The notes beneath the pieces were generated by a model. It ran no database searches. It was not told the DNA's origin and saw only the letters and a list, made by a program, of their open reading frames with translations. The translations under genes and the position numbers were made by a program. DNA of 64,000 bases, taken from positions 496,001-560,000 of the forward strand of contig NC_018015.1 in the NCBI RefSeq assembly GCF_000265525.1, in the 5' to 3' direction. This DNA is from Thermococcus cleftensis (lineage in GTDB: Archaea; Methanobacteriota_B; Thermococci; Thermococcales; Thermococcaceae). This document shows positions 1,442-59,232 of the stretch, piece by piece (positions within the stretch are counted from its first letter, which is position 1; each line of letters starts with the position of its first letter).

Positions 1442-2053
1442 TCATTCCAGAAGGGCCTTTATTTCCTCATCGCTCCACTCCCTGTACCCCTCGCGGGTAA
1501 CGGTAACCAGGGTGACGCCACCTCCCGTGAAGACGTCCCTCCTGGTGGCGGCCTTTATGGCCCTGAGAGCGAGCTTAACGCCCCCCTCCAGGGGCATATC
1601 CTCCCGATAGTTCTCTTCAAGTATTGAGAAGGCGAATTCCATTCCGGAACCGGCGGCTGTGAACTTGTCTTCCGTGACGCCGCCCGCCATGTCTATCGAA
1701 TAAAGACCGGGCTTCTCGTCATGACCCGCTATGAGAAACCACCCGAAGTAGGGCATGAAGCGGTTCCCATGAAGCACGTTAGAAGTCAGGGTCGCGAGAG
1801 CCTTAACGCTCATCTCCTTGCCCACCCTTGCGCGGTAGAGCTTTGCCTCAGCGCGGAGAAGCCGGACGAGGCTTAGAATATCCCCAACGCTTCCGGCACC
1901 GGCAAGGGCCAGGTGGTCATCTATCCAGAAGACCTTGGTGACGTTCTCAGACAGCACCATGTTGCCGAGCGATGCTCTCCTGTCAGCCGCTAGGACGACG
2001 CCGTCCTTACATACAATGCCGACCGTAGTCGTTCCCTTTAGCTTTTCGGTCAA
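1442..2053 (-). CDS. psmB: Proteasome subunit beta
   Basis: Catalytic beta subunit of the 20S proteasome, 203 residues. It has a very short propeptide (MTEKLKG) cut before Thr8, giving the active N-terminal threonine in TTTVGIV. The Ntn-hydrolase features ADRRAS (catalytic Lys region) and GSGMEFA follow. It lies directly upstream of fttA. Its promoter shares a 117-bp intergenic region with the divergent gene at 2171, where the AT-rich box near 2119-2130 reads as a TATA element on both strands. Archaea often carry two beta paralogues; which one this is was not determined. Confidence 0.96.
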
Positions 2054-2170: not shown

Positions 2171-3334
2171 ATGAAGGAAGTTATCCTGCTCACGGGGCCG
2201 CCGCTCAACGGGCGTGACGAGTACATAACCGAGGCTCTCGAGAAGGCCGATGGCGAGAGCTACGCCTACTACCACGTCTTCGACTACATAAAGGAAGTTG
2301 GCAAGGAGAAGGGCGTCAAGATAACGAGAAAGAACGTCCTCGATTTCGCCATAAATCACCAGGACCTGATGAACGAGATACGCGACGAGGCCTTCGAGAG
2401 GATAAGGAGCGAGATAGACGGGAGCGATAAGAGGTACCACCTCGTATCAACGCCCAGCCTCTTCAGGTGGGGAAGCGGTAGTGTCATAGGGTTCACCACC
2501 AGCAATCTGAAGCTCCTGAAGCCGGACAGGGTGATAATAGTCCTCGACGACGTGCTATCGGTCAGGAGGAGGATAATCAACGACCCGGAGTGGTTCGAGC
2601 GCTTTGGAGAGAACCCCGAGAACATCAAGCTCACCACCCTGGTCATGTGGCGCGAAGATGCCATAAACCACGTGAAGACCCTGATACACGAGCTCAAGAA
2701 AGAGGGAATAAACGTCCGCTACGTCCTGCAGTTCGGCATAAGGCACCCGCACGGCGTCTTCCTTGACCTGATATTCAGGGAGAAGGAGAAGCCCCTCGTC
2801 TACCTCAGCTACCCGATGACCGGCCACGAGGAGGAGTACTACCACCGCGTCAGGGGATTCTACACCAAGCTCAGCGAGCACTTCACGGTTCTCGACCCCG
2901 GGGCACTTGACGACTGGTGGGTCGTTGCGGAATACGACAACCAGGTAGCTAGGAACCCGCGCGTGAAGAAAATCAGGATAAAGCACCTCATCGACGGCAA
3001 CGAAGTAGACGAGCTGGACAGGGGGGACATAGAGCAGGCGACGGAGATACTAAGGAGACAGCTCGTCGAGAGGGACTTCAACCTCGTCGATGTGAGCAAA
3101 GCTATAGCTGTCTATCACTACGCAGAGGGCGTTTCGGCTGGGGTTATCAGCGAGATGGCGGAGGCTTACAGGACGCTGGCGGCGATATACCTCTACTACC
3201 CCTTCGAGAGGAGGCCTAGCCCATTCATGGAGTTCTACGGCATGCAGAACCCCTCGCGTAGGACGATGTTCAGGGACGAGGACGAGATGGTAAGGGCGAT
3301 GGTCGATGAAAAGGAGTACTGGGCAAAGGTGTGA
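2171..3334 (+). CDS. P-loop (adenylate-kinase-like) protein fused to a nucleoside deoxyribosyltransferase-like domain
   Basis: Conserved protein of 387 residues without an assigned role that I know of. Residues 5-17 (LLTGPPLNGRDEY) look like a divergent Walker A loop lacking the usual GKS/T. The N-terminal half resembles a nucleotide-kinase fold. From about residue 210 the sequence VYLSYPMTG starts a segment that resembles nucleoside 2-deoxyribosyltransferases, ending in AVYHYAEGVSAGVISEM near residue 310, a typical nucleotide-binding turn plus acidic residue. ATG 2171 is preceded by GGAGGGTGA and by a TATA box near 2120-2130. The stop lies 3 bases before the K+ channel gene, so the two are translationally linked. 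Reading the domains as a fusion is inference from motifs. Confidence 0.8.
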   Translation: MKEVILLTGPPLNGRDEYITEALEKADGESYAYYHVFDYIKEVGKEKGVKITRKNVLDFAINHQDLMNEIRDEAFERIRSEIDGSDKRYHLVSTPSLFRWGSGSVIGFTTSNLKLLKPDRVIIVLDDVLSVRRRIINDPEWFERFGENPENIKLTTLVMWREDAINHVKTLIHELKKEGINVRYVLQFGIRHPHGVFLDLIFREKEKPLVYLSYPMTGHEEEYYHRVRGFYTKLSEHFTVLDPGALDDWWVVAEYDNQVARNPRVKKIRIKHLIDGNEVDELDRGDIEQATEILRRQLVERDFNLVDVSKAIAVYHYAEGVSAGVISEMAEAYRTLAAIYLYYPFERRPSPFMEFYGMQNPSRRTMFRDEDEMVRAMVDEKEYWAKV

Positions 3335-3337
3335 TTA

Positions 3338-3676
3338 ATGAGCGGGGAGCTCGTTGGCTTCAGTACTTTTTTCAAGGAATTCCTCAGGGTCCTGTACTAC
3401 GTTAGGAGCATACTCGCCGGACTCTTCGGCCTGATAGCCCTGATTGGGGTTGTCATATCACTTGTCGATAGAATGACAATCTGGCAAGGTGTTTATCTTG
3501 CGTTCGTTTCGGCCTTCACGGTGGGCTACGGGGACATAACACCCAAAACTCCCATTTCCAAGTTTCTGGCTGTGATAATACTCCCCATTCTCGGCATGAT
3601 GCTGACGGGCATAATGGTCGCGGCGGCGATGAAAGCCATAGAAAGACTCTACCAGGAGAAATGGGGGGAAACTTGA
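3338..3676 (+). CDS. Two-helix potassium channel (no RCK domain)
   Basis: Integral membrane protein of 112 residues. It has an outer helix (about 18-42), a re-entrant pore loop with the K+ selectivity filter TVGYGD near residue 67, and an inner helix (about 82-104). This is the minimal KcsA/MthK pore layout. There is no cytoplasmic RCK ligand domain and only about ten residues after the second helix, so gating control must come from elsewhere. It starts 3 bp after the P-loop/deoxyribosyltransferase-like gene, which may act in the same process. The gene converges on gdhA with a 28-bp gap. Confidence 0.9.
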   Translation: MSGELVGFSTFFKEFLRVLYYVRSILAGLFGLIALIGVVISLVDRMTIWQGVYLAFVSAFTVGYGDITPKTPISKFLAVIILPILGMMLTGIMVAAAMKAIERLYQEKWGET

Positions 3677-3704: not shown

Positions 3705-4964
3705 TCACTTCTTCACCCAGCCGCGCCACTTCATGGCGTCGTAGACCCTCTGGACGGCGACGACGTAGGCGGCGTCACGCATGTTGATGCCCTTCTCCTT
3801 GTGGGTGTTGTAGACGTCCCAGAAGGCCTTGGTCATCTTCTTGTCGAGCTTGGCCCTGGTGGTCTCGAGGTCCCAGTAGTCGCCGGTTATGTTCTGGACC
3901 CACTCGAAGTAGCTGACGGTGACACCACCGGCGTTACAGAGGAAGTCCGGTATGATAAGGACGCCCTTCTCGTAGAGTATCTCGTCGGCCTCCGGGGTGG
4001 TCGGACCGTTGGCGAGCTCGGCGACGATCTTGGCCTTGATGTTGTCGGCGTTCTCCTTGGTGATGACGCCCTCGATGGCGCTCGGGGCGAGGACGTCAAC
4101 TTCAAGCTCGAGGAGCTCCTCGTTGGTGATGTTGGTGGCTCCTGGGAAGTCCTTAACGCTGCCGTTCTTCTTCTTCCACTCGAGGACCTCGTCGGCGTTC
4201 AATCCATCGGGGTTGTAGATGCCGCCCTTGCTGTCGCTGACGGCGACGACCTTCATGCCGTACTCCTCGCTCATGATCTTGGCCATGTAGTAGCCGGCGT
4301 TACCGTAACCCTGGATGGCGATGGTCTTGCCCTTGAGGTCCATGTCGAGGGCCTTCGCGGCCTCGCGAACGGTGTAGCTGGCACCCCTGGCGGTGGCGTC
4401 CATTCTGGCGACGATACCACCGACTCCGGGCGGCTTACCGGTGATGATGCCGAAGCTCGGGACCTTCCTCCTGCTGATGGCCTCGTACTCGTCCATCATC
4501 CAGGCCATGATCTGCGGGTTGGTGTAAACGTCCGGGGCCGGAATGTCGGTGTACGGGCTGATGACGTCGTAGATGGCCCTTATGTAGTTCCTAGCGAGCC
4601 TCTCCTTCTCCCTCTCGCTGAGCTCCTTCGGGTTGACGATGATACCACCCTTACCTCCACCGTAGGGGAGGTCAACAACGGCGACCTTCCAGGTCATCCA
4701 GGTGGCGAGGGCCTTAACGGTGCTGAGGGTCTCGGCCGGGTGCCACCTTATACCACCCTTGGTCGGACCGCGGGCCCAGTTGTGCTGAACGCGGAAACCG
4801 GTGAAAACCTTAACAGAACCGTCGTCCATCTCGAGCGGGACGCTGACCTCAACAATCCTCATGGGCTTCTTGAGCCACTCAAGGGCCTCCTCGCTTATCT
4901 CCATGAACTGGGCAGCCCTCTCGAGCTGCTGAACGGCCATCTCAAAGGGGTCAATCTCGACCAT
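3705..4964 (-). CDS. gdhA: Glutamate dehydrogenase
   Basis: Hexameric glutamate dehydrogenase, 419 residues, interconverting glutamate and 2-oxoglutarate plus ammonia with NAD(P)H; a very abundant enzyme in Thermococcales. Visible: catalytic Lys105 in PYGGGKGGI, the substrate-loop Asp in PAPDVYTN, the Rossmann turn QGYGNAGYY, and the C-terminal [16 protein letters not shown] block. An in-frame GTG at 4973 would add three residues, but ATG 4964 follows GAGGTGGTAGAG at good spacing and gives the usual start [10 protein letters not shown]. The upstream region has a strong TATA box (separate entry). Confidence 0.98.
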
Positions 4965-5014
4965 CTCTACCACCTCGGGTTTCGGTAATTTGCGAGGTAC
5001 TCTTAGGCATTTGC

Positions 5015-7274: not shown

Positions 7275-7309
7275 AGCCTTCTTTTCTTTTAACTTTGGGA
7301 GGTGTGCAG

Positions 7310-8373
<1,064 letters not shown>

Positions 8374-8420: not shown

Positions 8421-10412
8421 TCAGGAAATCTGGGCCAGGAACTTCCTCAACCTCTTCGGTGAGATGCGGGTTTTCCTGGCCAGTTCCTCCACGTCGGCCC
8501 CCTTCAGATCCTCGATCGTGTGTATCCCAGCGCGCTGAAGCTTTGCCAGCGTCTTCGGCCCGATGCCCTTTATCCTGAGAAGGTCGCTCCCGGTTTTGTC
8601 GGGGCCTTTCTTTCTCACCAACCTGCGCTTCTCAATCCCGCCGGACTTCACCCGCTTTACGGCCTTTTTTGAGGGCCTGACTGCCACCTCCTTCACCACC
8701 TCCGTGGCGTAGGCCCTCTTAGCAACTTCCCTCGACCGTTCGACCGGCTCTTCAGTTCTCTCCGGAGGAACCTCTGGGGGCTCCACGAACTCCTCAAGCT
8801 CTGGGGGATTATCGCTCACGTAGTGAGCCATCACCACCGGCCTGAAGGCGTTGTCCCTCTCCTCCAGCTCCTCAAGGAGCTTAACGTCGATATCCCCAGT
8901 CCTCACGTACCTCACCAGCTCGTTGGCCAGCCTGTGGAAGTCCCTGCTGTGGAGCAGTATTCTGCGCTCGGCGTATCCCCTCGCCTGTCCAGTGGTTATG
9001 AGGAACTCCCAGTCGCTGGCTTCGAGGATCAAGAGCTCCCTCGCCAGCTGTTCAAGGATTCTATCGGTGGTTCTGTCCCTTCCGTAGTACCTGCTCGCCA
9101 GCGCTACCATTCTGTCCTCGGCCCGGTAGACGTGCTCCCACGCCCACTCCGTCTCAGCGTTCCACCAGGTGGAGTGGTCGGAGTTAGCTCCCCACGAGCC
9201 CTCGGGCAGTTCAATCCCGTACCTCTCGCCGGTGTAGTTGTCGAGGTAGGCGGAGAGCGTCGTGGTGACTATTCCCCTCTCCGCCATCAGCTCAAGAACC
9301 CTGCCGAGCCACTTGACCCCCTCGAACCACCAGTGGCCGAAGAGCTCGGTGTCGTAGGGCGAGACCACTATGCCCTTCTCGCCCGTCTCCTCCTCGAACT
9401 CGGCCAGGAGCCTCTCTACCAGGCTTACAAAGTGCCTCGCGTGCTCCTCTACGCGTTCCATCGCCCTCTCGGGGTCGTAGAAGTCTTTATCGCCCAGCTC
9501 AACGTCCTTGCCCGTCACGCGCCAGTACTGGCCACCGCTCTTCGGCGCCTTTCTGTGGAACTCCCTGTACCAGAAGTCGCCTGGGTAACCGTAGTGGGCG
9601 CTCCAGACCTGATGGCCGGTTTCCCTGTTGCGGGCGAAGACTGCCACGCGGGAGCCTTTAATCCAGTAGGGCCTGAGGGTGCTCTTATCACCCTCGTGGA
9701 GGGGAATCTCACCGTAGCCCCTCGTTACGGGACCCTCGTCTATGAGGTTGCTCTCCACGAAGAAATACTCGATGCCGAACTCCTCCAGGAACTTCTCTAT
9801 GCCGGCCCTCTTAACCCTCCTTCCACCGGGCAGCTCCCACTCTCCGGCCGGCCGGTAGGCGCACTCAGGCAACCATATCCCCCTCGGCCTCCTGCCGAAG
9901 TGCTTCTCGTAGGTCGCCACCCCGTTGGCCAGCTGGGCCCTTATCGCCTCGTCCCTGCCGAGGAGCGGGAGGTAGCCGTGCGTCGCGGCTGATGTTATTA
10001 TCTCAATGTAGCCGGTATCCTGAAACTCGCGGAGCTTGCCCACTATGTCCCCGTTGATGGCATTCCAGTAGTCGTAGACCTTCCTGAAGTGGTCGAGGGA
10101 AGCCTTGACGGCCCTCTCGTCGTACCTGCCCGATTTCAGGTCCTCCTCGGTGGCTTCAATCTTCCTGAGGAGGTACCTCTCGAACTCGGCCTTGATGTAC
10201 TCATCGGCCAGCTGCTCTGCCAGGACGGGCGTCACGTTAATCACGAGCTGGAACCTGACTCCGGAGGAGCGGAGGCGTTCGAACTCCATGAGCAGGGGAA
10301 GGTATGTCTCGCTCATCGCCTCGTAGAGCCACTCCTCACCGAAGGGCCACTTTCCATGCTTTCGCACGTAGGGTATGTGGGTGTGCAGGACGAATGTGAA
10401 ATGGCCTCTCAT
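8421..10412 (-). CDS. GH57 1,4-alpha-glucan branching enzyme with C-terminal helix-hairpin-helix
   Basis: 663 residues, close in sequence and length to the characterised Thermococcus branching enzyme. It forms alpha-1,6 branches in glycogen. The GH57 barrel starts at residue 1 (FTFVLHTHIPYVRKHG). The likely nucleophile is Glu183 in WLPECAYRP and the acid/base Asp354 in SPYDTELFGHWW. After a low-complexity, Pro/Glu/Arg-rich linker (about 560-610) the last ~50 residues form a helix-hairpin-helix domain (IKGIGPKTLAKLQRAGI). Single gene with its own promoter (TTAAATA near 10446-10455), convergent with the PII/hypothetical side. Confidence 0.95.
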   Translation of the reverse strand: MRGHFTFVLHTHIPYVRKHGKWPFGEEWLYEAMSETYLPLLMEFERLRSSGVRFQLVINVTPVLAEQLADEYIKAEFERYLLRKIEATEEDLKSGRYDERAVKASLDHFRKVYDYWNAINGDIVGKLREFQDTGYIEIITSAATHGYLPLLGRDEAIRAQLANGVATYEKHFGRRPRGIWLPECAYRPAGEWELPGGRRVKRAGIEKFLEEFGIEYFFVESNLIDEGPVTRGYGEIPLHEGDKSTLRPYWIKGSRVAVFARNRETGHQVWSAHYGYPGDFWYREFHRKAPKSGGQYWRVTGKDVELGDKDFYDPERAMERVEEHARHFVSLVERLLAEFEEETGEKGIVVSPYDTELFGHWWFEGVKWLGRVLELMAERGIVTTTLSAYLDNYTGERYGIELPEGSWGANSDHSTWWNAETEWAWEHVYRAEDRMVALASRYYGRDRTTDRILEQLARELLILEASDWEFLITTGQARGYAERRILLHSRDFHRLANELVRYVRTGDIDVKLLEELEERDNAFRPVVMAHYVSDNPPELEEFVEPPEVPPERTEEPVERSREVAKRAYATEVVKEVAVRPSKKAVKRVKSGGIEKRRLVRKKGPDKTGSDLLRIKGIGPKTLAKLQRAGIHTIEDLKGADVEELARKTRISPKRLRKFLAQIS

Positions 10413-58649: not shown

Positions 58650-59232
58650 ACTCTCCCACCGCCAGATCAAGTACTTCAACAAGCTCGTGGACGGCCTCCT
58701 CAAGGCCCTTATCCTCATGGTTTTCAATTATCTTAATAAGCGCGTTCGAGTGCATGGCGTAACTCACGGCAGCGGCACGGTTCAGATCCTGGTGCCTCTG
58801 TATCTGCTCTTCGGTCTCTACATCGCGGTCGCGCTTCAGGTCGCGGAGGCGCCTTCCGAGGATCTCGCTCGGGGTGGCCTCGATGATCACGATGAAGTTT
58901 GGGTTTATAACCTCGATAACCTCCCTGGGGAAGCCGAGAAGGTAGCCAACGGGTGTCCTTATGGTCGCGTGGGTGTCTATCAGAATGGGCTCACTCTGGG
59001 CCATCTCCACTATCCTCCTCGCGGCCTTCATCTGAAGGTCCTTCTGAACGTTGGGGTTGAGCTTCCGCATCTCGTCCCGGTGCTTGACCAAACCTGCCTT
59101 AACGGCCTCCTCGAACATTATGTCGCCGAAGTTCACGAGCCGGAACTTGGCCCGGGCCTTCTTGAGTGCCAGCCGGGTTATGGTGCTCTTTCCCACCCCT
59201 GGAATTCCTGTTATCATGACCACAAACGGCAT
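58642..59232 (-). CDS. adkA: Adenylate kinase (archaeal type)
   Basis: 196 residues; AMP + ATP to 2 ADP. P-loop [17 protein letters not shown] (residues 6-22), [29 protein letters not shown]. The archaeal trimeric AdkA form rather than bacterial Adk. ATG 59232 is five bases after GGGTGA; ATG 59235 is possible. Overlaps the DUF106 gene by eight bases. Confidence 0.95.

Follow-up and report, generated by a model that had tools for sequence, protein, structure and literature searches.

Gene A, the first gene of a closely spaced pair in the window (the whole stretch of 64,000 nucleotides of Thermococcus cleftensis that was analysed), belongs to an uncharacterised archaeal family in which two known domains are newly combined, namely a half related to archaeal adenylate kinase (AdkA) at the N-terminus and an N-glycosidase-like half at the C-terminus, and its product is most likely an enzyme of the nucleotide pool. 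In our favoured reading, to which a slightly better than even chance is given, it would act as an N-glycosidase on (deoxy)nucleoside monophosphates ((d)NMPs), with the AdkA-derived half binding a nucleotide. No Pfam family or NCBIfam equivalog spans the full length of the protein, and no description of an AdkA/N-glycosidase-type fusion was found in the literature. The counterpart in T. kodakarensis, which from its matching position we take to be TK1430, returned a single passing mention as the source of a terminator and no account of a function. The gene is core-like in an archaeal family that is genetically tractable, and if it encodes a nucleotide N-glycosidase, hot-living archaea would possess a DNPH1-like cleaner of the nucleotide pool on an adenylate-kinase scaffold.

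The start codon of gene A is preceded by GGAGGGTGAT, and its stop codon lies 3 bp from the start of an open reading frame for a K+ channel; this spacing and the lack of a regulatory domain in the channel, both pointed out in the first-pass annotation, were confirmed from the open reading frames and a Pfam scan. In the host genome, which consists of one contig of 1.95 Mb, the two genes are flanked by genes for a proteasome beta subunit (1442-2053, minus strand) and glutamate dehydrogenase (3705-4973, minus strand), and the neighbourhood is one of housekeeping genes and no defence island. Positions of all features are compiled in Table 1.

Table 1: Features of gene A, its neighbour and the canonical AdkA gene, with their positions in the window.
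Feature	Position	Strand	Basis
Gene A, two-domain AdkA-like / putative N-glycosidase (NDT/DNPH1-like) protein	2171..3334	+	ORF of 387 aa, start ATG at 2171
N-terminal AdkA-like P-loop domain, residues 1-180	2171..2710	+	PDB profile matches to archaeal adenylate kinases; Foldseek 6pjw
Deviant P-loop GPPLNGRD, residues 9-16	2195..2218	+	sequence
C-terminal NDT/DNPH1-like putative N-glycosidase domain, residues 207-387	2789..3334	+	hhalign to stand-alone relatives; Foldseek 8pqr
Tyr211, equivalent of DNPH1 Tyr24	2801..2803	+	invariant in 26/26; aligned via A4 to MilB YLSxP/FLAAP motif
Asp302, equivalent of DNPH1 Asp80 (general acid)	3074..3076	+	invariant in 26/26; HMM alignment to DNPH1
SAGVISEM: Ser322 (DNPH1 Ser98, phosphate), Gly324 (Gly100), Glu328 (Glu104, nucleophile)	3134..3157	+	HMM alignments to DNPH1 and MilB
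Minimal K+ channel, 112 aa; lineage-specific neighbour	3338..3676	+	Ion_trans_2, E 6e-12, 45.7 bits (cut-off 22.5)
Selectivity filter TVGYGD	3518..3535	+	conserved in 20/20 orthologues
Canonical AdkA of the same genome, P-loop with GKST	58666..59226	-	NF003122, 269 bits (cut-off 155)

Gene A is a genuine gene, kept in 83 of 94 Thermococcaceae genomes under a median dN/dS of 0.05. Within this family it is single-copy and about 80-93% identical, and it is absent only from two incomplete assemblies and from all nine genomes of the genus g12 (G088-G096), presumably Pyrococcus. A second archaeal phylum, that of G060 and probably Thermoproteota, was reached with an outside relative of 25-29% identity (L051, from genome G044) as bridge query: two-domain homologues of about 320-410 aa turned up there in 48 of 349 genomes, a count which includes one homologue truncated by a contig end. 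Only single-domain AdkA-type matches and no two-domain homologues were obtained from 150 genomes of a methanogen-like phylum; from the small phylum of G058 came a single weak match, confined to the N-terminal half, and none with a second query, which is weak negative evidence. No homologues of gene A were found on phage, plasmid and viral contigs. The contig scan for relatives of gene A matched Thermococcus and its near relatives only, because its patterns are genus-specific.

That gene A joins an AdkA-type fold in its N-terminal half to a fold of the nucleoside 2'-deoxyribosyltransferase (NDT) type in its C-terminal half is regarded as nearly certain, and the fusion of a nucleotide kinase-like with a deoxyribosyltransferase-like protein proposed in the first-pass annotation was borne out by AlphaFold2, Foldseek and a chain of sequence comparisons. 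AlphaFold2 models reached a pLDDT of 86.5 and a pTM of 0.87 with 16 natural homologues, and 91.4 and 0.91 with 26 homologues. When the first model was compared with the PDB by Foldseek, the N-terminal half matched an archaeal adenylate kinase (6pjw, E 6.4e-8, TM 0.77 by target), and the sole match listed for the C-terminal half was an NDT (8pqr, E 5.5e-4, TM 0.63 by target). The C-terminal fold is assigned from this first search and from sequence, because the top matches listed for the second, better model were all of AdkA type with none to the C-terminal half among them. Independently of the structure models, the family profile found AdkA structures in the PDB (6ln3, E 1.6e-14), and the profile of the C-terminal half aligned with stand-alone archaeal NDT-like proteins (hhalign probability 98.6, E 6e-16), which themselves exceed the cut-off of the Pfam family Nuc_deoxyrib_tr (PF05014).

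The residues expected in an active site are strongly conserved in the C-terminal half. Over 26 divergent members Y211, S213, P215, P243, D302, G324, E328 and P351 are invariant, and the position of Ser322 holds Ser in 24 members and His in two. In DNPH1 (also Rcl, 5-hydroxymethyl-dUMP N-hydrolase), the catalytic set is Y24, D80 and E104, the covalent intermediate is formed on E104, and the phosphate is bound by S98 and the amide of Gly100 (PMC10603095, PMC10483697). HMM alignments placed D302, S322, G324 and E328 of gene A on the DNPH1 positions given in Table 1 and on the corresponding motif of MilB, and Y211 was brought onto the Tyr of DNPH1, or the Phe of MilB, through the stand-alone relatives. 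The C-terminal half hence shares with DNPH1 the Tyr/Asp/Glu set together with the phosphate-binding Ser and Gly, but DNPH1 is a stand-alone homodimer of about 150-175 aa known from mammals, whereas gene A carries the domain fused to an AdkA-like half and has an insert separating the two motif blocks; for the second Ser and the shielding elements of DNPH1 no counterparts were located in gene A. MilB, a CMP N-glycosidase (4jen) and the top PDB sequence match (E 0.007), has the Ser...Glu motif in common with gene A, but it is bacterial, lacks a kinase half, carries Phe17 at the place of Tyr211 and prefers ribonucleotides (PMC10603095). DNPH1 followed (E 0.13), both ahead of NDT, and both are weak matches, that to DNPH1 not being significant alone.

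That the C-terminal half could instead be a true NDT, swapping bases between deoxynucleosides for salvage, is doubtful. It would agree with the Foldseek match to 8pqr, with the shared fold and catalytic Tyr/Asp/Glu, and with the fact that Nuc_deoxyrib_tr is the closest Pfam family, to which 17 of the 26 members match at E <= 0.01; at the gathering score of that family, however, gene A had no match, and the relatives scanned singly stayed below 28.8 bits. In NDTs of the L. helveticus/leichmannii type the residue six places ahead of the catalytic Glu is Asp; all 26 members of the gene A family carry Ser or His there instead, Ser being also the residue of DNPH1 and MilB, which bind phosphate. Because the conserved set is accompanied by a phosphate-binding Ser in place of this Asp, the C-terminal half looks like a nucleotide rather than a nucleoside N-glycosidase, and fits DNPH1 and MilB better than NDT.

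For the predicted activity on nucleoside monophosphates, the balance of these comparisons tips just towards its presence. Gene A would then encode a soluble protein with a retaining N-glycosidase of the NDT superfamily and the DNPH1/MilB type, in which a nucleoside 5'-monophosphate, presumably with a preference for deoxyribose, would be held by Ser322 and backbone amides, Glu328 would attack C1', tuned by Tyr211, and Asp302 would protonate the leaving base, so that free base and (deoxy)ribose 5-phosphate would be released. Its likely role would be the recycling or the removal of unwanted or damaged (d)NMPs in hot-living archaea. An alternative without catalysis, in which both halves are nucleotide-binding modules and the protein senses nucleotide levels as a regulator of some other partner, appears improbable. 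Related Rossmann-like folds do act as ligand sensors in other systems, and the P-loop is degenerate and variable within the family, but the Tyr, Asp and Glu retained over very divergent members would be needless for a pure sensor, and no partner gene was conserved among 19 neighbourhoods of second-phylum homologues.

Stand-alone NDT-like proteins of about 140 aa also occur in the second phylum (L160-L168), with Phe at the place of Tyr211 and a conserved SAG(A/T)CMExFYA motif; they are further uncharacterised candidates for nucleotide N-glycosidases.

The N-terminal half shares fold and homology with archaeal AdkA (PRK04040 / NF003122) and differs from it in being fused to a second domain and in a P-loop with GR(D/E) instead of GK(S/T). 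The absence of the usual GK(S/T), noted at first reading of the sequence, was confirmed (the context reads TGPPLNGRDEY), but it is less remarkable than it looks, because the P-loop Lys is likewise missing from euryarchaeal AdkA enzymes of solved structure (TGVPGVGGTT). Against the NF003122 equivalog gene A scored 21.1 bits, far below the cut-off of 155. As a canonical AdkA is encoded elsewhere in the window (Table 1), gene A was rejected as the adenylate kinase of the cell. Only L57 and W160 are invariant in this half over the 26 divergent members, and the P-loop is variable: residue 15 is Arg in 17, Lys in five and Met in three members, the stretch being missing from one. A bifunctional enzyme, whose AdkA-like half still transfers phosphate and thereby makes or consumes the nucleotide cleaved by the other half, could draw on the Lys-free P-loop of the solved enzymes, on the basic residue that 22 members have at this place, out of 25 with a letter there, and on Asp126, which is D or E in all members. 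It is nonetheless quite improbable, since the Ser/Thr of the next position is lost (one Ser in 26 members), the P-loop Gly is substituted in some, and the genome already encodes a canonical AdkA with GKST. For the N-glycosidase reading we assume that this AdkA-descended half with its GR(D/E)-type P-loop most likely serves to bind a nucleotide, to regulate or to present the substrate.

If deoxyribose 5-phosphate is a product of gene A, cells with the gene are expected to carry deoxyribose-phosphate aldolase (DERA), and the absence of DERA from g12 was predicted in advance from the lack of gene A in that genus. DERA was detected in 83 of 94 Thermococcaceae genomes and is missing from exactly g12 (9/9), the remaining misses being incomplete assemblies; the lack of both genes in g12 counts as one evolutionary event, a loss. 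In the second phylum 41 of 48 genomes with a gene A homologue possess DERA vs 109 of 301 others (Fisher p 1e-10, with genomes that are not independent and a comparison confounded by descent). Of the four outside relatives closest to gene A, three come from genomes in which no DERA match was obtained (G634, G575 and G638), and this weakened DERA as an obligatory partner. The link between gene A and DERA is suggestive, not obligatory; if gene A encodes a nucleotide N-glycosidase, nucleotide hygiene at high temperature would be linked to deoxyribose-phosphate recycling. The genus g12 keeps AdkA in the five genomes checked, though gene A and DERA are lacking in all nine.

The adjacent channel resembles minimal K+ channels of the KcsA/MthK type in its Ion_trans_2 match, the only domain matched, and its TVGYGD filter, but it lacks an RCK or other regulatory domain and is a neighbour restricted to Thermococcus. 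With an intact filter and a dN/dS of 0.12 it is a genuine gene under purifying selection. Within the genus, 20 genomes, that of the window among them, have an orthologue with 59-86% identity beside gene A. The channel is found in about one third of Thermococcus genomes and no outgroup genus has it, while gene A stands without it in roughly two thirds of the Thermococcus genomes and in all other Thermococcaceae genera that have gene A; no similar channel was seen in the 19 second-phylum neighbourhoods. The reading frame of the channel is broken in G012 and only a remnant persists in G028, gene A being retained in both. In G017, G077 and G081 (loci L025, L032 and L059) gene A and an intact channel are separated by an oppositely oriented gene of about 115 aa, read in G017 and G077 and judged in G081 only from a gap of the same size. 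The G017 copy, the one scanned, matched DUF4389 (E 4e-15), and the channel there has a TATA-like box of its own. On the tree of gene A the presence of the channel needs about eight changes; one gain inside Thermococcus followed by repeated loss fits this history, for which change counts alone cannot separate gain from loss. The dN/dS of gene A is the same with (0.0494) and without the channel (0.0501).

We are confident that gene A is independent of the channel: the many genomes with gene A alone, the decay of the channel, the intervening gene and the equal dN/dS make the pair a lineage-specific arrangement. The first-pass annotation had proposed a soluble nucleotide sensor gating a bare pore and had stated that a pair not conserved in other genomes would refute it; the pair proved not to be conserved. 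That gene A is such a sensor, binding and gating the channel, possibly as a defence-type effector pair, is in keeping with the gap of 0-4 bp from the stop of gene A to the start of the channel in most genomes that have both, with the finding of no channel orthologue away from gene A within the genus, and with the purifying selection on a channel with an intact filter, but set against the four observations just named it is unsupported and highly improbable. A defence reading of the locus was rejected on an empty PADLOC-DB search at E <= 10 and the proteasome and glutamate dehydrogenase flanks. Only a very slight chance is given to a recruitment of the enzyme as a regulator in one lineage, by which the AdkA/N-glycosidase, through its product or when a nucleotide is bound to it, would gate the co-translated pore wherever Thermococcus lineages have retained the channel. 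For gene A as a nucleotide N-glycosidase, the channel would have joined the locus inside Thermococcus and be dispensable, and it is probably no part of the function of gene A. The case illustrates that two genes arranged start to stop may be only transient neighbours.

Two further genes of the window deserve mention. A membrane protein of 247 aa without a Pfam family is encoded at 7295-8038 (plus strand), its neighbours being an SNF transporter on one side and a P-II-like protein on the other. At 8421-10412 (minus strand) a GH57 branching enzyme carries a helix-hairpin-helix domain (HHH_5) at its C-terminus, an unusual combination of a DNA-binding-type motif with a sugar enzyme.
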